This document shows positions 41,720 through 51,077 of a stretch of 64,000 bases of DNA, piece after piece. Within the stretch, counting starts at the first letter, position 1; the number at the start of each line of letters is the position of its first letter. This stretch comes from Phormidesmis priestleyi ULC007. Its GTDB lineage: Bacteria; Cyanobacteriota; Cyanobacteriia; Leptolyngbyales; Leptolyngbyaceae. Where the stretch lies: assembly GCF_001895925.1 (NCBI RefSeq), contig NZ_MPPI01000014.1, positions 1-64,000 on the forward strand, written 5' to 3'. The position numbers and the translations under genes were made by a program. The notes beneath the pieces were generated by a model. That model worked only from the letters and a program-made list of their open reading frames with translations, was not told the origin of the DNA and ran no database searches.

Positions 41720-42433
41720 ATGATTGTCTGTCCCAATTGCAACCATCAGAATCCTGATGGGGCGGTGCAGTGCGAGGCTTGCTATACGCCTCTTCCAGCG
41801 ACAACTCAATGCCCTAACTGTGGGACGACCGTGCAAGCTGATGCCAGTTTTTGCGGTCAGTGTGGCTTTAACTTAAAAACTCCAGAGCCTGAAAGTCAAG
41901 TCGCGACCGCAGTTTCGTCACCCGTGAGCGAATCTGACCCCGATCGCTTACCAGATTTGCTCACGATCGATCCGCTAGTCTCGCCCGATCCGTTAGTCGA
42001 GCCGCCTCCACCCACTTCGCCTGAACCAGTAGCTGAACCGATGTTACTGCCGCCTGTGCCGATCGCTGAGTCTACTCCAGTTAGCTCAGCCACCCAATTG
42101 CAAAATCAGTCGGGCAGACTGCTGCATTTGCAAACCAATGTGGTGATTGAGCTACCGCAGGGGCTGCCTGTGGTGCATATTGGCAAGCCCAACGATCGCA
42201 TTCCGCCTGATATTGATGTCTCTGGCTTTCCCAACTCAGAAATTGTCTCTCGCATTCACGCTGATATTCGGGCTGATGGTGATGCTTATTACATTGAAGA
42301 TGTCGGCAGCTCAAATGGCACTTATATCAATAACGTGCCGTTGCTGTTAGGCAATCGTCATCGGCTGCGTCCGGGCGATCGGATTGCCTTGGGCAAAGGT
42401 GATAAAGTTTCCTTCTTATTTCAGATGTCGTGA
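41720..42433 (+). CDS. Zinc-ribbon and FHA-domain protein
   Basis: Protein of 237 residues. The N-terminus holds two short zinc ribbons, CPNCNHQNPDGAVQCEAC and CPNCGTTVQADASFCGQC. A Pro/Glu/Ser-rich linker of about 80 residues follows. The C-terminal FHA domain (residues about 140-237) has the phosphothreonine-binding features SRIHADIRADGDAYYIEDVG and SSNGTYINN. FHA domains bind phosphothreonine, so this is a likely partner of a Ser/Thr kinase; an FHA-kinase fusion follows directly. The frame opens earlier (41699), but MIVCPNC at 41720 is the natural start. Confidence 0.9.
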   Translation: MIVCPNCNHQNPDGAVQCEACYTPLPATTQCPNCGTTVQADASFCGQCGFNLKTPEPESQVATAVSSPVSESDPDRLPDLLTIDPLVSPDPLVEPPPPTSPEPVAEPMLLPPVPIAESTPVSSATQLQNQSGRLLHLQTNVVIELPQGLPVVHIGKPNDRIPPDIDVSGFPNSEIVSRIHADIRADGDAYYIEDVGSSNGTYINNVPLLLGNRHRLRPGDRIALGKGDKVSFLFQMS

Positions 42434-42603
42434 CGAGTATCGTTTTTGACTTTAAAGAAGCTGTTCAGAAGAATTTAATCTAAGTTAGAGTGGTGACGTT
42501 CCGCATCTTGACCGCTTTTCTTAAAGCAGAGTTAAGCTGCAAGCCATTTAAACACAAGCAGTCTTCTCATCCTGTCTGCGTATTCAGACTCGGCAGCGCT
42601 AAT

Positions 42604-43953
42604 GTGATTACTCTGACCCTTCTGCACCCTGTCCAATTAAAGCCCGTTCAATGTTGGACGTTTGACGATGAATCGGTGATTCGCATTGGGCGATCGCCCG
42701 ATAATCAGGTCATTCTCTATAGTGCTGTGGTCTCTCGACATCATGTAGAACTGCGGCGGATCAATTCTGTCTGGGAAGTCGAAAGTTTGGGCGCAAACGG
42801 CACTTATCTAGACGGCAAACGCATCGCTCAGGTGCCTGTTAGAAATGGCATGATCATCCGACTGGCACGATCAGGCCCTAACATTCAAATTCACGTTGGG
42901 GTTTCAGCCAGCCATGAGGCAGACAAACTAGCGGGTGAGCGCACATTGTCGCAGCGCGCCCAGTCTAAGCAGAACTCGGCGACTTCAGACATAGAGGCAG
43001 ACACCACACAACCTCTGCCCGCGATGGAAGTGCTTGAAAGTCAAATTCCTGAGCGATCGACGGCAATGGAACCACCCGGCGAAAAGCTCAGTTTAGCGGG
43101 CAGCATCACCTGTGATCACCTTCGCAAGACCCCCGATTTTCGGTTTTGCATTGATTGCGGTGCGCCTTTGAGCGTGCAGCAGACGATCGGCGATTATCAA
43201 ATAGTGAAGCTTTTAGGTGAAGGTGAAGTGGGCTTCACCTATCTGGTTTGGCGACAGGGAAAGCATCGGGTTCTCAAAACCTTAAACTCGGAGTGGGTCA
43301 AGCACCCCAAAGCACTCAATTTATTTGAACGAGAAGCGAAGGCTCTCAGTCAACTGAGTCATCCCAGCCTTCCTCAAGTTCTGGATTTTTTCACGATCGA
43401 GCAGCCTTATCTCGTAGTGGAATTGATTTATGGTCGATCGCTCTTTCAACAAGTCACAAAATGGGGAGCCATTCCTCAAAAGCAGGCGATCGGCTGGATG
43501 CTAGAACTGTGCGAAGTTTTAGAGTATCTGCATCAGCAGTCGCCTCCAGTTTTACACCAAGATATCAGACCTCATAATTTAATTCGACGATCGACCCCCA
43601 CTGCCTTTCGCGAAATCTCTTTGGTTGATTTTGGGGCAGTTAGAGGGTTAGGGCTAGAAGCTAAAAACCGCACTAGCGCGATCGGCTACAGTGCCCCAGA
43701 GCAGTACGCGGGCAAAGCAAGTCCTGCTTCAGATTTATATTCTCTAGGGACAACGCTGGCATTTTTGCTATCAGGTCAAGACCCTGGCGAGTTTTATCGC
43801 TATCGAGAACAAGGCTATCGCTTTTATGCTGAATATGTGCCTGGGTTGAGTGCCGAAATCGTGCAGGTAATTCGTAAATTGACCCATCCTGAAGTTAGAG
43901 ATCGTTACACTTCAGCCCAAGAAGTCGCAGAAGCGCTAAAGCAAATCGTTTAG
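42604..43953 (+). CDS. FHA-domain serine/threonine kinase with altered catalytic loop
   Basis: Fusion of about 449 residues if the GTG at 42604 is used (the frame is open from 42490 at another GTG; the true start is uncertain). Domain order: FHA (IRIGRSPDNQVILYSAVVSR, LGANGTYLDG), linker, a half zinc ribbon (CDH ... FCIDCGAPL), then a Hanks kinase with glycine loop LGEGEVGFTYL and lysine in RVLKTL. The catalytic loop is VLHQDIRPHNLIRR: Gln replaces Arg of HRD and Arg replaces the usual Lys, while Asp and Asn remain. LVDFGAVR is intact. It may be a slow or non-canonical kinase. It lacks membrane helices. Confidence 0.85.
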   Translation: MITLTLLHPVQLKPVQCWTFDDESVIRIGRSPDNQVILYSAVVSRHHVELRRINSVWEVESLGANGTYLDGKRIAQVPVRNGMIIRLARSGPNIQIHVGVSASHEADKLAGERTLSQRAQSKQNSATSDIEADTTQPLPAMEVLESQIPERSTAMEPPGEKLSLAGSITCDHLRKTPDFRFCIDCGAPLSVQQTIGDYQIVKLLGEGEVGFTYLVWRQGKHRVLKTLNSEWVKHPKALNLFEREAKALSQLSHPSLPQVLDFFTIEQPYLVVELIYGRSLFQQVTKWGAIPQKQAIGWMLELCEVLEYLHQQSPPVLHQDIRPHNLIRRSTPTAFREISLVDFGAVRGLGLEAKNRTSAIGYSAPEQYAGKASPASDLYSLGTTLAFLLSGQDPGEFYRYREQGYRFYAEYVPGLSAEIVQVIRKLTHPEVRDRYTSAQEVAEALKQIV

Positions 43954-44112
43954 AGAACGAGACGCTAAAGCTCAGAAGTCCTATTGACAGAAGGAGCAAA
44001 GCAACCGTAGCTCCGCTATCTTCACAAAGCGCTCAAGATGATAACGGATCTGGGAAAATGACAGTTGTTTGCATTATTGTAGTGGATAGCGATTAATCTC
44101 TGAGGTACACAC

Positions 44113-44496
44113 ATGGCAGACAAATCGAACGTTACGCTGACGATCGCCTTCAATGATCCTGATCTGGATAGCGAAGAACTAGAAGAGCAAGCCCAAAACC
44201 TGCTGGCTCAAATGAAAGACTTGGACGAAATTGAAACCGTCGATCGGGTGCTTGATCCAAATCCACCGGAAGGGAACAAGGCAGTGGGCGCAATTTTGGT
44301 CGGAATTCTGACGGCTCAGGTAAATAAAGAGAACGCCCAAAAGGTAATGGGATTTCTGTTCGATCGCATTGGTCCTAAGCCTATTGAACTGGAAGTGGAA
44401 GTGGAAGCCAATGGCAAAAAGCTAAAGGTGAAAGCCAGCAGTCAGGCAGAGTTAATGGCAGCGATCGAAGCGGCACAGAAATTTGTAGCAGCATAG
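44113..44496 (+). CDS. Small EACC1-like effector-associated protein
   Basis: Acidic protein of 127 residues: a strand (NVTLTIAF), a helix (SEELEEQAQNLLAQMKDL), a strand (ETVDRVL), a Pro-containing turn, a hydrophobic helix (GNKAVGAILVGILTAQV), a strand pair (IELEVEVEANGKKLKVKA) and a final helix. This order matches my recollection of EACC1 (effector-associated constant component 1), a small partner encoded beside caspases and other peptidases in bacterial conflict systems. The caspase-like gene follows after only 9 bases, supporting the call. The similarity is by pattern, not by alignment. Confidence 0.7.
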   Translation: MADKSNVTLTIAFNDPDLDSEELEEQAQNLLAQMKDLDEIETVDRVLDPNPPEGNKAVGAILVGILTAQVNKENAQKVMGFLFDRIGPKPIELEVEVEANGKKLKVKASSQAELMAAIEAAQKFVAA

Positions 44497-44505
44497 GATA
44501 TTGAC

Positions 44506-46278
44506 ATGGCAAAGGTCGCATTGTTAATTGGCGTTAGTGAGTATGAGCCTGGATTAAATCCCCTCCCTAGTGCTGCAAAAGATATTAAAGCGATGCAGCA
44601 GGTTTTGCAGCATCCAGAGATGGGTAACTTCACTGCATCAGATATTAGAGTCCTAGAGAATCCTGATTGCCAAGCAATGGAAGAGGCGATCGAAACGCTG
44701 TTTGCTAGCCGTAAAAAAGATGACTTGGTATTACTCTTTTTTTCGGGTCATGGCATTAAAGATGACCAAGGTAGACTTTACCTATCCAATGCTAAAACTC
44801 GTACGAATCAAGAAGGGCTTGTTCGCTCAACAGCAGTGCCCGCCAGTATCGTGCAGGAAAGTATGACTAGAAGCCGCTCTAAACGGCAGGTTGTCATTCT
44901 AGATTGTTGTTTCAGTGGCGCATTTGCTGAGGGAATGTTGGCGAAAGATGATGGTTCTGTTGATATTAACTCCCAGCTAGGCGGTGAAGGTCGGGCAATT
45001 CTTACCTCTTCCACGTCAACCCAATATTCTTTTGAGCAACAGGGTTCAGACCTATCTGTCTACACCCGCTATCTGATCGAAGGAATTGAAACAGGAGCCG
45101 CTGATCAGGATAACGATGGTTCCATTTCAATCGATGAGCTACACGAATATGCTAAACGCAAGGTGCAAGAAACGGCTCCAGCAATGAAGCCAGAAATCTA
45201 CGCTGTTAAAGAAGGCTTCAAAATTCTGCTTGCTAAAGCGTCTCTTGGTGATCCAAAACTCAGATACCGTAAAGATGTTGAGCATTTTGCCAGTCGGGGT
45301 GAAATTTCAGAAATCGCCCGAATGGGCTTGGAAGCCAAAAGAGCAAAATTAGGCTTATTACCAGAGGAAGGGGCTGCAATCGAAGCCGAGGTTGTTAAGC
45401 CTTACCAGGAATATAAGCAAAGCTTGCGGCAATATGAACAAGAGTTCAATAATGCAGTTAAACGTCAATTTCCTTTCAGTAGCGAGACTCGCAGTGATTT
45501 GAAGTATTTTCAACAGGCTTTAGGGCTTAGAGATGAGGACGTTGCACCAATTGAGGCGAAACTTAATCCAATTGTAAAACCTGAGCCAGTTCCCAATCCC
45601 TCAAACTCAAAGCCTTCTTCCAAACGCGGTGGTTGGCTGGTCGGATTGAGCCTAATTAGCACTTTGACTGTGGCAACCGGAGCATTCTTTTGGACACAGT
45701 TGCTGCTAAGACCAAAAGTCTCCATTACGCCACCCCAAAAAACAGCAGTCATCACTCCGCCAGATGTACCAAAGATCCCAGTAGTCACTACTCCACTAGA
45801 TGTACCCAAAAACCCAGTAGTCACCACTCCGCCAGATGTACTAAAGACCCCAGTAGTCCGCATTACGCCAGATGTACCAAAGACCATTGATTGCAAAGAA
45901 CAACTAGCAAGTAAGCTTGGTCGTTATGAAGGAAAAGCTATAATCCAAAACTCTTCACCACCTGGAAAGTCAGGGAGATTTATCATAGACATCGACATCA
46001 AGCCCGATAGTAAGAATTTATGTAAGTGGATAGCTGAAGTTCAAGAGTTTTATCCCCTTAAAGGGGGAGGTATTCTTAGCAGTCCGGTTGACCCTAAATC
46101 GAAGCAGCCAGTAATTTTGACGGGAAGCTTAGGTGACCCAGGTGAACGTAAAGCTTGGAATGTTGTAATGAAGATTAGTATCGACGGAAATCGTATTAGT
46201 GGTTCCTCAGTGTGGACACCACCGAGCGGCGTAGGAGGCATAACATACGAAGAAAAATTTGAAGCAACAAAATCTTAA
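44506..46278 (+). CDS. Membrane-spanning caspase-like (C14) protease
   Basis: Protein of 590 residues. The N-terminal caspase domain (1-235) has the catalytic His in LLFFSGHGIKDD and Cys in VVILDCCFSGAF. An EF-hand-like loop, DQDNDGSISIDEL, fits the calcium-binding pattern exactly. Next is a helical module (about 245-355) with two copies of LGLxxE(E/D)xxxIExxV. A membrane helix follows (about 373-395). Then come four tandem 12-residue repeats based on PVVTTPxDVPKx, and a C-terminal beta-rich domain of about 125 residues, presumably on the other side of the membrane. It is likely translated with the EACC1-like gene. A death or defence effector controlled by signal input is the natural guess. 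Confidence 0.88.
   Translation: MAKVALLIGVSEYEPGLNPLPSAAKDIKAMQQVLQHPEMGNFTASDIRVLENPDCQAMEEAIETLFASRKKDDLVLLFFSGHGIKDDQGRLYLSNAKTRTNQEGLVRSTAVPASIVQESMTRSRSKRQVVILDCCFSGAFAEGMLAKDDGSVDINSQLGGEGRAILTSSTSTQYSFEQQGSDLSVYTRYLIEGIETGAADQDNDGSISIDELHEYAKRKVQETAPAMKPEIYAVKEGFKILLAKASLGDPKLRYRKDVEHFASRGEISEIARMGLEAKRAKLGLLPEEGAAIEAEVVKPYQEYKQSLRQYEQEFNNAVKRQFPFSSETRSDLKYFQQALGLRDEDVAPIEAKLNPIVKPEPVPNPSNSKPSSKRGGWLVGLSLISTLTVATGAFFWTQLLLRPKVSITPPQKTAVITPPDVPKIPVVTTPLDVPKNPVVTTPPDVLKTPVVRITPDVPKTIDCKEQLASKLGRYEGKAIIQNSSPPGKSGRFIIDIDIKPDSKNLCKWIAEVQEFYPLKGGGILSSPVDPKSKQPVILTGSLGDPGERKAWNVVMKISIDGNRISGSSVWTPPSGVGGITYEEKFEATKS
45742..45885 (+). repeat. Four 36-bp tandem repeats inside the caspase-like gene
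   Basis: Units start at 45742, 45778, 45814 and 45850, each encoding 12 residues of the form xVxTPxDVPKx. They form a Pro/Val linker between the membrane helix and the C-terminal domain. The number of units could vary between strains. Confidence 0.8.
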
Positions 46279-46293
46279 CCAAATCTTTTCAAC

Positions 46294-46346
46294 GCGATCG
46301 CACTTGAGCCAATTATGCAGGAGCGATCGTCGTTGGCAGAGAAGGG
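46294..46346. repeat. Direct repeat, left copy, flanking xisI-xisH
   Basis: The 32 bases at 46315-46346 match 47272-47303 at 31 positions, and weaker similarity extends to the left (a shared GCGATCGCACT) and into the following 30 bases. The two copies enclose xisI and the xisH remnant, suggesting movement or duplication of this cassette. Confidence 0.75.
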
Positions 46347-46366
46347 GCAATGCTTCCAAGCAGAGG

Positions 46367-46702
46367 CTACACCACTGCATATCCTGTCTGTGATCGAATC
46401 TCAGGGGAGTGAAAAGCCAGCACAATGCGGTCTTTGGGAATGCTTGCAGCTACGAGGTCTTCGGTGATGCCGCGATCGATGCCATCATGATGTATCCAAA
46501 GTTTGCCACTGCGAATTTCGGCATGGAAAACCAAACTATGGATTCGTCTCTTACCCTCCCAGCCTTCATTGATCACCATAAAATGATTGCGGTCTTCGCT
46601 CACGATCACGGTGCTAGTGATGCGATCGGGCTTGTTCATCAGCAGAGCCTGTTCTGACAATGATTTATACAAGATATCACGGTATTTATCTATCCTATCC
46701 AT
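46367..46702 (-). CDS. xisI: XisI, fdxN-element excision controlling factor
   Basis: Protein of 111 residues, the usual XisI length. MDRIDKYRDILYKSLSEQAL opens it, then VINEGWEGKRRIHSLVFHAE and LWIHHDGIDRGITEDLVAAS, and the ending IVLAFHSPEIRSQTGYAV is the family's conserved C-terminus. XisH and XisI were first described as needed for excision of the fdxN element in Anabaena, but homologues are abundant in cyanobacteria without that element. Its start codon overlaps the end of the xisH remnant, which is damaged. Confidence 0.92.
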   Translation of the reverse strand: MDRIDKYRDILYKSLSEQALLMNKPDRITSTVIVSEDRNHFMVINEGWEGKRRIHSLVFHAEIRSGKLWIHHDGIDRGITEDLVAASIPKDRIVLAFHSPEIRSQTGYAVV

Positions 46703-47105
46703 TGAGTAATGACCTCCCGAACTTCATCAAAAATCAAAACTTTGATGTGACGTTTTCTGAGCGGAATTTGCACAATTGGCTCAGAAAAAAGGTGAGATAA
46801 ATTCCCTCTCAAACCGCTAAGTAAAGAACGCGCTCTGGATACTCCTCAGCAATGATATCTTCGTAGAGAATGTACTGCCCAAGGGCATTTTCTACATCCT
46901 TGACTGGCGATGAGCTGATGAAGCTCTTCACCCCTACAGCGATTTTTTGGTTACCACGATCGGCAATCAACAGTTTTTCAGCACCCAAATCAACATAGAG
47001 ATCCCGTTCACCGATTGCCAAAGTCAGGGGATCGTCAGTAATCGTCCAGCCATCTTTGATCAGGGCAGTTTTAACGGTGTCGTGATAGAGGTCTTTAGCG
47101 GGCAT
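46690..47105 (-). pseudogene. xisH: XisH, broken by a stop codon and a frameshift
   Basis: The N-terminal part reads MPAKDLYHDTVKTALIKDGW, then LYVDLGAEKLLIADRGNQKI and GQYILYEDIIAEEYPERVLY, typical of XisH. The frame then ends at TGA (46806-46808) directly after LAV. The C-terminus is still present in another frame as IPLRKRHIKVLIFDEVREVI ending TQWIG at 46690, overlapping the xisI start. One base missing from a T run (six T, 46785-46790) restores the frame, and TGA is one substitution from a serine codon. Two independent lesions make a sequencing error unlikely, so the xisHI pair is decaying. Confidence 0.85.
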
Positions 47106-47252
47106 AGAGCAGAACTGAGTCATTCCTTCTACTGTAAATCATGGCTCTATCTTGGGGATAATTGAGAGTACAAGTACTCTCAGGAAAACTCTGGAAGAGT
47201 ATGAAACTTTCTCGATTTTGACATCATTACCCCATGCTCTTGATGCCACCAT

Positions 47253-47303
47253 GCGATCGCACTCGCAAGTCATGCAAGAGCGATCGTCGTTGGCAGAGAA
47301 GGG
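47253..47303. repeat. Direct repeat, right copy, flanking xisI-xisH
   Basis: Partner of 46294-46346; the core 47272-47303 differs at one base of 32. It lies between the xisH start and xth. The surrounding 300 bases (47106-47406) hold no other gene that I can support. Confidence 0.75.
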
Positions 47304-47406
47304 AGCGATCGCTTACGGTGAAGCTACTCACTCGTTCAAATGCTAATAGAGATTTAGAGCTTTTTCCAGTACGCTAGTCCCTATTGCTGCTGGACTTAAG
47401 GGCACT

Positions 47407-48201
47407 ATGAAAATTGCTACGTGGAATGTTAACTCGGTGAGAACTCGACTAGAACAAGTTGTGGGATGGTTGCAAGACAATCCGATCGATGTGTTGTGTC
47501 TTCAAGAAACCAAAGTTGTCGATGAGAGTTTTCCGCGATCGGCGTTCACCGACCTCAACTATCAGGTTTATGCGTTTGGGCAAAAAAGCTATAACGGCGT
47601 GGCGTTGATTAGCCGATCGCCGCTTTCGGATGTCAATGTGGGTTTTGGAGCGGTCTTACCAGAAAGCGTTGTCGGTGATTTAGATGAACAAAAACGGGTG
47701 ATTACTGGAGTTTTAGACGGCGTTCGAGTGGTTAATCTCTATGTCCCGAATGGGTCATCGGTTGGCAGCGATAAATACCTTTATAAGCTTCACTGGCTTA
47801 AGGTTTTGCGAGAATATTTAGAGGTTTTGCTGCAACAGTCGCAGAATTTGTTGGTGTGTGGTGACTTCAATGTTGCGCTGGAAGACTTGGATATTCACGA
47901 TCCTAAAGGGCGCGAAAAGCAGGTGATGGCGACCGACGCTGAACGAGCAGCCCTGCGTCACGTTCTCGATTTGGGCTTGTCGGATGTGTTTCGCAAATTC
48001 AATCAAGAAGGCGGACAGTTTAGCTGGTGGGATTATCGAACCGGGGCGTTTCGTCGCAATGCGGGCTGGCGAATTGACCATCACTACGCCACGCCTGATT
48101 TATATGAACGATCGATCGCCTGCACGATCGATACGGCTCCTCGCAAGCTGACTCAACCGAGCGATCATACGCCAGTGATCGTCGAACTTTCGCTAAGTTA
48201 G
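47407..48201 (+). CDS. xth: Exodeoxyribonuclease III
   Basis: AP endonuclease/3'-5' exonuclease of base excision repair, 264 residues. MKIATWNVNSVRTRLEQVVG, then VLCLQETKVVDESFP with the metal-binding Glu, LLVCGDFNVALEDLDIHDP, and FSWWDYRTGAFRRNAGWRID with the final SDHTPVIVEL are all conserved EEP-fold motifs. An SDR gene follows after 26 bases on the same strand. Confidence 0.96.
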   Translation: MKIATWNVNSVRTRLEQVVGWLQDNPIDVLCLQETKVVDESFPRSAFTDLNYQVYAFGQKSYNGVALISRSPLSDVNVGFGAVLPESVVGDLDEQKRVITGVLDGVRVVNLYVPNGSSVGSDKYLYKLHWLKVLREYLEVLLQQSQNLLVCGDFNVALEDLDIHDPKGREKQVMATDAERAALRHVLDLGLSDVFRKFNQEGGQFSWWDYRTGAFRRNAGWRIDHHYATPDLYERSIACTIDTAPRKLTQPSDHTPVIVELSLS

Positions 48202-48227
48202 TTAAGGAAGTATCGCGGTTCAAATCT

Positions 48228-49097
48228 ATGTATTTAGTGACTGGGGCAACGGGTGGGTTAGGTCGTCGGATTGTCAGACTTCTACGAGAGCGAGAGTTGT
48301 CGGTGCGATCGTTGGTGCGGCTGATGTCAAACTACGCCGAGCTTGAGCATCGCGGCTCTGAGGTTTTTATTGGGGATTTGTCTCGTGAACGGGATGTCCA
48401 GAAAGCCGTGCAAGGTGTGCAGTATGTGATTAGCGCTCATGGCGGTGAGGCTGAAGCGATTAACTATCGTGCCAATATTGACCTGATCGATCACGCAAAG
48501 GCGGCAGGCGTTGCTCATTTTGTATTTATTTCAGTGTTGGGAGTTGATCGCGGCTATGAAGATGCGCCTGTCTTTAAAGCAAAACGCGAGGTCGAAAAAT
48601 ATCTACAGACCAGTGGGTTGAATTACACGATTCTGCGCCCTTCAGGATTTGCCTCTAACTTATTGCCGTTAGCAGAGCAGTTTCGACGCACCGGAATTTA
48701 TCTATTGATTGGCGATCCTCAGAGTCGCACCTCGATTGTCAGCACTGATGACTTGGCAAAAATTGCGATCGAGTCCGTCTCTCTAGAAGCCGCGCGTAAT
48801 CAAATTCTGTCGGTGGGCGGGGCAGAAATATTGCAACGTCAAGAGATTCCTCGCATCTTTGGGCGAATTTTTAATCGAGAACCCACTATCATTAATCCGC
48901 CTCTACTCGCCTTTGATGCGACTCGGAGTTTGGTCGGTTTGCTCAATCCTAAAGGTCAAGAATCATTGGGGACTTTAAGAGCACTCCTCGCCAACGAGTT
49001 TTTCTGCACACCTGCTGAAACTGAGCGCATTGAATCGCTCTTTAACCTGAAGCTAGAAACGCTAGAAAGCTTTTTGAGACGATATTTGAGCGTTTAA
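48228..49097 (+). CDS. Atypical SDR, NmrA-like NAD(P)-binding protein
   Basis: Rossmann-fold protein of 289 residues. The dinucleotide site is LVTGATGGLGRRIVRLLRER at the start; VAHFVFISVLGVDRGYEDAP and LNYTILRPSGFASNLLPLAE fit the atypical SDR/NmrA group related to Ycf39-type proteins. The usual catalytic YxxxK is replaced by FKAKREVEKYL, so it may bind without catalysis. Substrate unknown. A related YcfA39-like role in photosystem assembly is possible but unproven. Confidence 0.83.
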   Translation: MYLVTGATGGLGRRIVRLLRERELSVRSLVRLMSNYAELEHRGSEVFIGDLSRERDVQKAVQGVQYVISAHGGEAEAINYRANIDLIDHAKAAGVAHFVFISVLGVDRGYEDAPVFKAKREVEKYLQTSGLNYTILRPSGFASNLLPLAEQFRRTGIYLLIGDPQSRTSIVSTDDLAKIAIESVSLEAARNQILSVGGAEILQRQEIPRIFGRIFNREPTIINPPLLAFDATRSLVGLLNPKGQESLGTLRALLANEFFCTPAETERIESLFNLKLETLESFLRRYLSV

Positions 49098-49099
49098 TT

Positions 49100-49861
49100 C
49101 TAGATTCCGATCGCCCATCCTAAACTCATTGCGACGATCGCGCCAATCAGCGTATTGAAGACATTCACGACTTCGTTCGTCATCCAATCAAAATCTGATT
49201 GTAATGTTGCGCCGATGACGCTTTCTAGATTCGTCGCGATGAACGCTGCCACGATGCACAGCCCAATCCCGATCGGGCTAATCATTCCGACTGCCCACGC
49301 GACGACTGCGATGGCGATCGAGGCCACAATTCCTGCTAGGGTGCCTTCTAAGCTAACCGCTCCTTCCGTTCCGCTGAGCACGGGTTTTAGAGTCGTGATC
49401 AAAAAAGTCCGTTTGCCGTAAGCTTTGCCGACCTCACTGGCGCAGGTGTCTGAAAGTTTTGTGCAGAAGCTTGCCACATATCCCAACAACAGCAAAGGAA
49501 TAAATTTCTCGCCTTGACCGACGAGTGAAATGAGCAGAACGCCTAACGCGCAGACGGTGGCGATCAGTGCCGATCCCCAAACGTTTTCCGGCCCGCGTGC
49601 GCCCGATCGTTTCTCGGCAATGCCCATCGCTTCTTTTTGCGCTTTGCCGACAAAGGTGATGCCCGACCCCACTAAGAAGTAGAACCCGACCACGAGATAA
49701 CCTTGCCATCCCAGACTGCCCCAGACAATCACACCCAAAATCCAGGCGTGAAAGATGCCTGCCGGAGTCAGGAGTTTTTTAGGAGCAAGCCACACGATCG
49801 CCAGCAAAACGGTGTTGAGTCCGATCGCAACTAACCAAGGAATTAGGGAGGGTGACAGCAT
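49100..49861 (-). CDS. DUF92/TIGR00297 membrane protein, phytyl-phosphate kinase (VTE6)-like
   Basis: Integral membrane protein of 253 residues with about seven helices. LTPAGIFHAWILGVIVWGSL, then KRSGARGPENVWGSALIATV and KLSDTCASEVGKAYGKRTFL are the conserved loops of the family. The cyanobacterial and plant homologue VTE6 is a phytyl-phosphate kinase that recycles phytol from chlorophyll to tocopherol. The frame opens with TTG at 49867; the ATG at 49861 is preferred. Convergent with the SDR gene, 2 bases apart. Confidence 0.87.
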   Translation of the reverse strand: MLSPSLIPWLVAIGLNTVLLAIVWLAPKKLLTPAGIFHAWILGVIVWGSLGWQGYLVVGFYFLVGSGITFVGKAQKEAMGIAEKRSGARGPENVWGSALIATVCALGVLLISLVGQGEKFIPLLLLGYVASFCTKLSDTCASEVGKAYGKRTFLITTLKPVLSGTEGAVSLEGTLAGIVASIAIAVVAWAVGMISPIGIGLCIVAAFIATNLESVIGATLQSDFDWMTNEVVNVFNTLIGAIVAMSLGWAIGI

Positions 49862-49916
49862 CAGCAAGCCCAGAAATTCGCCATAATTTATTCTGACACC
49901 TAACCTTCCTAATCCT

Positions 49917-50348
49917 ATGTCTCCTACCCTTTTTCACCTCACCTTTCCCATCACAGATATTGCTCAGACAAAGGAATTTTATGTGAATGGATTGGGGTGC
50001 CAATTAGGTCGAGAAAATTCTCAGGCTGTGATTCTCGATCTGTATGGTCATCAACTGGTTGCCCACATGACCGATGAGCCATTAACACCCCAAAAGGGTA
50101 TCTACCCCAGACATTTTGGGCTAGTTTTTACTGATGAAACAGACTGGAAAGCTTTGTTAGAGAGGGTGCAGAGCAAGCAACTGGCACTTTATCAGCAGCC
50201 AAAACAGCGCTTTGTTGGAACGCCGTTAGAACATCGAACTTTCTTTCTATCTGATCCGTTCGATAACTTGATGGAGTTCAAATTTTATGCTCATCAATCG
50301 GCTATTTTTGGCGATCGTGACTATGCCCAAATCGGCGATCGCGTCTGA
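49917..50348 (+). CDS. VOC-family (glyoxalase/dioxygenase fold) protein
   Basis: Protein of 143 residues with paired beta-alpha-beta-beta-beta modules. FHLTFPITDIAQTKEFYVNG opens it, with the first metal-position His in that strand; then HQLVAHMTDEP, HFGLVFTDETDW and FFLSDPFDNLMEFKFY with a final Glu. The pattern of possible metal ligands (His, His, Glu) is kept. Substrate unknown. Divergent from the VTE6-like gene. Confidence 0.88.
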   Translation: MSPTLFHLTFPITDIAQTKEFYVNGLGCQLGRENSQAVILDLYGHQLVAHMTDEPLTPQKGIYPRHFGLVFTDETDWKALLERVQSKQLALYQQPKQRFVGTPLEHRTFFLSDPFDNLMEFKFYAHQSAIFGDRDYAQIGDRV

Positions 50349-50369
50349 GAAACACATCCTTCAGCTTTT

Positions 50370-50966
50370 TTACACAGGTTCTCGCAGTGCATTTGCCACA
50401 GTTTGCAGTCCTCTAGGGTCTTGCACCATCCAGGCGTGAAGCGGCACGTTGACTTGAATGTCTCGCCCCACCTGCAATTGAGAACTGGTTGCTGGCACAA
50501 TCATCAAATCCATCGGTGTCCAAATCGAAGTGAAGTTTAGTTTCTCTAACATCAGGACATCTCGATTGAGATCGTTTAAAAAAGAACTGTTAGGACGCAT
50601 TTGTATACAGCCCGGACGTTGAGATAGGTGAGCGGTCAACGTGCCGTTGTGAGGCGAGGAAATTGTAATGAAACGCTGGACGCGATCGAGTCCTCCTAAT
50701 CGCTGCACATAATAGCGGCTAACGATCCCACCCATGCTGAAGCCAATCAGATCAAAGGGCTGCTGGTTAGGCAAAGTTAACTCAATATAGGTCTCAAGCT
50801 GCTGGGCGAGACGATCGAGTTCATAATCTCCGTTTGAGGGAATGAGATCAAGGCTATGCACCACCCAACCATGCTTTTGCAAATAAGTGGTCATGGGTTT
50901 AAAGATGGCGTTGGTGTCGGTCAGCCCATGCACCAACACAACAGGATTAAGCTGTGAGGAATTCAT
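50370..50966 (-). CDS. Lipase-like alpha/beta hydrolase
   Basis: Protein of 198 residues. The oxyanion region PVVLVHGLTDTNAIFKPMTT and the nucleophile elbow LIGFSMGGIVSRYYVQRLGG (GxSxG) match the triacylglycerol lipase/EstA-type group. A catalytic His candidate is in NVPLHAWMVQDPRG. No signal peptide, so probably cytoplasmic. Substrate unknown. It stands alone and is convergent with the VOC gene. Confidence 0.87.
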   Translation of the reverse strand: MNSSQLNPVVLVHGLTDTNAIFKPMTTYLQKHGWVVHSLDLIPSNGDYELDRLAQQLETYIELTLPNQQPFDLIGFSMGGIVSRYYVQRLGGLDRVQRFITISSPHNGTLTAHLSQRPGCIQMRPNSSFLNDLNRDVLMLEKLNFTSIWTPMDLMIVPATSSQLQVGRDIQVNVPLHAWMVQDPRGLQTVANALREPV

Positions 50967-51077
50967 TCGTTAAAAAGAACTGCGGATCTCTAGCTTAACG
51001 GGGCACGATCGCGGCTGGATGTCGATCGAGGACAGACTGTGAAACGTCTCTCAAACCGCTGATCGGCTTTTCTAAAA

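Follow-up and report, generated by a model that had tools for sequence, protein, structure and literature searches.

A 64,000-nucleotide stretch of the Phormidesmis priestleyi ULC007 genome (here called the window) contains a pair of near-identical direct repeats with xisI and the remnant of xisH between them. A sequence-only reading of the window took this arrangement for the footprint of an inserted or duplicated cassette and suggested that it might explain how xisHI pairs spread in cyanobacteria. The locus thus raises the question of what these repeats delimit, how the enclosed genes came to lie here, and whether the repeats have a part in the movement of xisHI.

Direct repeats around xisI and a decayed xisH

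The two direct 32-mers, at positions 46315-46346 and 47272-47303, differ by a single mismatch, just as had been described from the sequence. When extended to 39 nt (46308-46346 and 47265-47303), the copies are 90% identical and spaced 957 bp apart, with a perfect core of 26 bp common to both. The clean excision of about 950 bases that had been proposed is geometrically possible with this spacing and core, but it was not observed. The weaker similarity remarked on at the flanks is also present: the upstream match of both copies runs, with a 2-nt gap, to a shared GCGATCGC (HIP1) at 46294/47253. HIP1 is a palindrome with no settled function that is abundant in cyanobacteria. In full, the copies form a direct, ~60-bp repeat enclosing xisI and the decayed xisH. 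Copy A, which is HIP1-bounded, lies at 46294-46351 on the forward strand (59.5 bits, E = 9e-17 with repeat profile R2, see below) and begins 15 bp past the stop of a caspase gene; copy B lies at 47253-47312, also on the forward strand (46.9 bits, E = 7e-13). Dinucleotide shuffles yielded 0 matches in 100, and a search of the 5.68-Mb genome at ≤3 mismatches returned the two window copies only; together, these results exclude chance for the repeat pair. The profile search of the same genome added one partial copy, beside a HepT-like gene (G000:C54:11413-11451). With only two to three copies in this genome, on contigs C106 and C54, and with clustered copies in other genomes, the repeat was rejected as a common dispersed sequence.

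The genes between the repeats belong to the XisHI families PF08814/PF08869, as do the fdxN-element excision factors XisH and XisI of Nostoc PCC 7120, and their products have solved relatives (2INB/2OKF and 2NLV/2NVM). Unlike in the fdxN element, xisH is here a pseudogene, and repeats of this kind enclose many other module types besides this pair. The intact xisI (46367-46702, reverse strand) encodes 111 amino acids (PF08869, E = 7e-33). The xisH pseudogene (46690-47123, reverse strand) matches PF08814 over profile positions 1-98 of 134 and, compared with the intact xisH of Lyngbya sp. HA4199-MV5 (G004) and 10 further homologues, carries three lesions: a TGA stop at 46809-46811; a 1-base deletion in a homopolymer run near 46785-46792; and an E58G substitution at the nearly invariant, catalytic-type Glu of the ExK motif (codon at about 46932-46934). 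With this stop, frameshift, and substitution, the window does not encode an intact XisH with the conserved D39 and E58-x-K60. Relative to G004, dN/dS is 0.09 for xisI and 0.035 for the aligned part of xisH, at a silent divergence of about 0.64-0.75; the low ratios indicate that strong selection acted on the pair for the greater part of its history, and the lesions in xisH are probably recent. The predicted fold of the intact G004 XisH matches the known XisH fold (2OKF, 2INB); its nuclease-like structural neighbors, such as the nickase N.BspD6I, were weaker and not significant alone. From the motif and general knowledge, we infer that XisH is a PD-(D/E)XK-type nuclease, and this putative nuclease partner has since been inactivated in the window lineage.

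Repeat-bounded arrays of toxin-antitoxin-type modules

A profile of the repeat (R1, refined as R2) was searched against 42 genomes of the family at a cut-off of E ≤ 1e-4, with 10 positive genomes and the other 32 below this standard. Arrays occur in Tildeniella nuda (G032), Stenomitos frigidus (G035), Leptolyngbya sp. ES-bin-22 (G039), G018, G001, and others; the data are draft and metagenome assemblies, and array-bearing genomes are few. A degenerate 27-base core, scanned over 84,980 genomes, was found only in Leptolyngbya, Stenomitos, Tildeniella, “Lyngbya” HA4199, and Leptolyngbyaceae MAG records, and viral contigs contained no match to the repeat core. As far as searched, the array organization is confined to Leptolyngbyaceae-like cyanobacteria. 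The ~60-bp repeat consensus, GCGATCGCCCTTGAGCCAATCATGCAGGAGCGATCGCGCTTGTnAAGAGAAGGGGCGATCGC, is composed of three HIP1 palindromes linked by two conserved linkers. Most strong matches in a genome fall into one or two arrays, each a few kilobases long. Copies in an array are usually separated by 0.4-1.5 kb, some form tandem pairs, and in each of 8 arrays all strong copies have the same orientation (orientations and module counts come from a manual reading of tables). Some copies are of half length only, and 5 of 11 truncated copies stop at model positions 37-41, which mark the edge of the central HIP1. Separately, a tandem HIP1-linked run resembling the 3′ half of the repeat was seen in G018 (C356, L184:2333-2708), just upstream of a putative MazF-type toxin-antitoxin pair, so named on sequence appearance.

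Most spacers between repeat copies hold one toxin-antitoxin-like module each, drawn from XisHI, Uma2, BrnT/CopG, Phd-PIN, AF2212-like-PIN, DUF2281-PIN, ParDE, PemK/MazF, HepT/nucleotidyltransferase, HicB-like, and DUF2442. BrnT/CopG is followed by Phd-PIN, by PemK/MazF, or (past a short ORF) by Uma2, depending on the array. Most modules are co-oriented with the repeat; xisHI and HicB, each seen in two genomes, are opposed to it in both. Caspase or TIR genes are frequent at the array edge, where a caspase gene (window, G032, and G027) or an LRR-Roc-COR-TIR gene (G020) ends at most about 20 bp from a repeat. As in the window, the repeat stands directly 3′ of a homologous caspase gene in G032 and G027, and beyond this junction lie xisHI in the window genome (G000), an AF2212-like ORF in G032, and a short stretch resembling part of a nucleotidyltransferase cassette in G027.

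In an all-against-all alignment of array loci, 53 of 116 block ends fell within 60 bp of a repeat, whereas 5000 random placements gave 14.8 such ends on average and 30 at most. Because this count takes in blocks of caspase and flanking genes, which are not cassettes, the figure is conservative. Junctions vary between genomes and are near-unique, and the arrays sit at different chromosomal places. Modules and single-orientation repeats alternate and are exchanged as repeat-bounded units, a modularity that is well supported.

These breakpoints bear on the possibility that the repeat is an ordinary HIP1-rich small repeat that collects in permissive islands alongside toxin-antitoxin genes and has no role in their movement. 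In its favor, cyanobacterial genomes are rich in HIP1, which serves as an insertion site for small repeats (PMC4390886); in G018, tandem runs of HIP1 similar to the repeat's 3′ half lie near other genes; and a few solo copies stand without a nearby toxin-antitoxin gene, such as the one between rnhA and glyS in G035 (C39). However, the copies are clustered in one or two arrays with one direction per array, and homology breaks at the repeats, which independent insertion does not predict; we regard such passive accumulation as quite improbable. The repeat does resemble cyanobacterial SDRs and HIP1-associated repeats in being small, HIP1-containing (three sites in the consensus), lineage-specific, and intergenic, but it differs from them in being low copy, clustered, directly oriented, and placed so as to delimit toxin-antitoxin-type modules. 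Dispersal over many sites was not found.

Arrival of the xisHI cassette at the window locus

The xisHI pair nearest to that of the window belongs to G004, where it lies at an unrelated locus in another genus (XisI identity, 86%). The order there is repeat, xisIH, repeat, Uma2, repeat, with all repeats direct, and nucleotide homology with the window (82% over 966 bp) extends from repeat to repeat and ends there. The sequence-only reading was therefore right that the repeats delimit a cassette, as the same xisHI lies between repeats of the same family at both loci. It erred on the extent of the insertion: a 3.4-kb block that includes the caspase gene and a small ORF was inserted, rather than the 950-bp repeat-xisHI-repeat unit. 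Its broader proposal, that such repeats explain the spread of xisHI, failed. Outside the window, good repeat matches beside xisH/xisI were found at G004 only, with no or weak matches at the 28 other xisI-bearing loci, and most repeat-bounded cassettes carry modules of other types; the repeat is therefore not an xisHI device and does not explain the spread of xisHI across cyanobacteria at large. A plasmid search returned distant xisHI relatives only.

The block absent from relatives (43954-47358) consists of the small ORF, the caspase gene, repeat A, xisIH, and repeat B; it has an FHA/kinase gene on one side and an exodeoxyribonuclease III-type gene (xthA) on the other. The small ORF (44113-44496, forward strand) encodes a conserved 127-amino-acid partner of the caspase with no Pfam match. 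The caspase-family (Peptidase_C14) gene that follows, a conflict-type gene (44506-46278, forward strand), is recognized by both PF00656 (5e-24) and the PADLOC caspase model (1.5e-18). A homologue of the small ORF is found directly upstream of the caspase gene in G027 (L106), and a 5′ remnant of it in G032. The ORF and caspase gene (44113-46278) travel as a unit in several genomes, seen in the window and at L106, with a remnant at L101.

In the sister species (G001), the sequences matching window positions 42072-43953 and 47359-51051 are neighbors, separated by a diverged spacer of 30 bp, and in G003 and G021 an FHA or FHA-kinase gene lies 36-104 bp from xthA. The flanking sequences or genes are adjacent in all three, and the block is therefore derived in the window lineage, that is, inserted there. 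Relatives also have no array at the positions of those at the trmB, AGE, and rhomboid loci. An empty site keeping one repeat, as might have been looked for under the sequence-only reading, was not found among the relatives examined, and the sister species has no repeat there; nor was a same-site pair of arrays with and without one cassette caught among the genomes compared. The solo repeat after rnhA in G035 is missing from five relatives, but these differ in the DNA beyond it and so carry no information on an empty site. As regards a composite transposon or MITE, the window repeats are direct rather than inverted, the intergenic DNA at the block edges has diverged too far for a target-site duplication to be called, and the annotated genes of the block include no transposase. 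Since the left edge of the block has no repeat, recombination between repeats does not explain the arrival of the whole block. We infer that blocks arrive by horizontal transfer; in the window lineage, the caspase unit, xisHI, and the two repeats would have been acquired together between the kinase gene and xthA.

Integrons and other routes of module exchange

In layout, the array family resembles the cassette arrays of integrons, but it has no integron attachment sites. As in integron cassette arrays (including CALIN), a short repeat alternates with single small genes or gene pairs, and the arrays are uniform in orientation, rich in toxin-antitoxin genes, and shuffled in order. Unlike in integrons, the repeat has HIP1 palindromes and no R″/R′ core, it lies away from intI, and modules opposed to the repeat must have their own promoter. 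Moreover, a separate integron with other attC-like sites is present in the same genome, which encodes two full-length integron integrases (TIGR02249, 428 and 458 bits) at G000:C38:7026-7961 (L159) and G000:C58:2180-3118 (L158), with two 97-nt attC-like repeats, 2.1 kb apart, upstream of the C38 intI. These integrases are on C58 and C38, whereas the HIP1-bounded repeats are on C106 and C54, and the first 18-20 kb of the two integrase contigs contain no R2 match in this draft assembly. The attC core pair (R″ RYYYAAC, R′ GTTRRRY) was found in 0 of 18 repeat copies on either strand, a strict test that would also miss the attC-like repeats of this genome (R″ present, R′ divergent); the HIP1-bounded repeats carry neither box. 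An automated attC scan (exact R″/R′ complement) gave no match even beside intI and is hence uninformative alone. IntI scored above the cut-off in 9 of 11 repeat-bearing genomes and in 20 of 32 family genomes without the repeat. We rejected an integron attC or CALIN identity, given that IntI is frequent without the repeat, the resident integron uses other repeats, and the attC core is absent. On account of the distinct attC-like repeats and the missing core, the arrays are not classed as an integron, though they are organized like one.

A dedicated site-specific recombinase could also act on the repeat, with crossover at HIP1 or in the linkers, and would make the modules true mobile cassettes in the manner of an integron. 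The presence of one module per interval, the uniform repeat orientation, the co-orientation of most modules, the near-unique junctions, the truncations at the central HIP1 edge, and the genuine IntI in most repeat-bearing genomes are all in line with such an enzyme; in addition, reported links between HIP1 and site-specific recombination, and the insertion of SDR5 repeats into HIP1, have been reviewed (PMC4390886). However, no recombinase gene was found in or beside the arrays, the attC core is lacking, IntI occurs in many genomes without the repeat, and the C38 intI locus has its different 97-nt repeats. Nor are the repeats faithful companions of a given cassette: repeats at corresponding ends of homologous cassettes were not significantly more similar than other pairs, although few pairs were available. 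We consider a dedicated recombinase of this kind unlikely.

Repeat similarity was 0.79 within arrays and 0.73 between arrays, a difference partly confounded by shared genome background. Such within-array likeness with no cassette-specific signature is expected if copies recombine with each other, and, with no recombinase linked to the arrays, it favors homologous or HIP1-assisted exchange. Our best explanation, which we hold to be reasonably probable, is that the window xisHI is one cassette of an integrase-less, attC-less array of toxin-antitoxin-type and conflict modules shuffled by recombination between repeats. Each module boundary would be a ~60-bp HIP1-bounded repeat. Since the copies of an array all share one direction, any two of them could recombine in a RecA-type (or HIP1-assisted) process that would delete, duplicate, or swap whole modules and leave genes undamaged. 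Addictive or self-protecting modules would survive in such spacers. Several observations weigh against this explanation: repeat identity, often 65-85%, is low if diverged copies are to be exchanged by RecA; some copies are half-length or solo; the left edge of the window block has no repeat; and neither a single-repeat empty site nor a same-site pair of arrays differing by one cassette was found. An undescribed Leptolyngbyaceae cassette system, separate from integrons and using the ~60-bp HIP1-bounded repeat as exchange site for an undiscovered recombinase or a HIP1-directed process, is possible, if rather doubtful.

The position of the repeats between transcription units and their hairpin-forming first half would also suit a role as transcription terminators or as RNA-processing insulators that were copied together with the genes. 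Yet no terminator-like site was found in the region, four of five copies have modest folding z-scores of about -1.8 to -2.0, the loop is about as conserved as the stem, and most homologous xisHI pairs have no such repeats, which makes this role highly improbable. Searches for terminator and known-RNA identities of the repeat gave no support.

The arrays share with defense islands and toxin-antitoxin clusters the co-localization of conflict genes (caspase, TIR, toxin-antitoxin, and Uma2), but differ from them in that their modules are set apart by a defined repeat, at which homology breaks. No description of such repeat-bounded arrays was found in the literature searched. They offer a concrete physical unit for gathering and reshuffling toxin-antitoxin-type genes outside integrons and prophages, and they tie module reshuffling to HIP1, so that the claim of HIP1-type recombination becomes testable at defined loci. 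The list of modules may also be longer than that given above: in G039, the same small ORF (“MSADPEEEDVLL...”) stands beside a repeat at two places, L186 (C531) and L115 (C212), at one of them between genes that resemble Uma2 and DUF2442 in sequence, and it is possibly a further cassette type.
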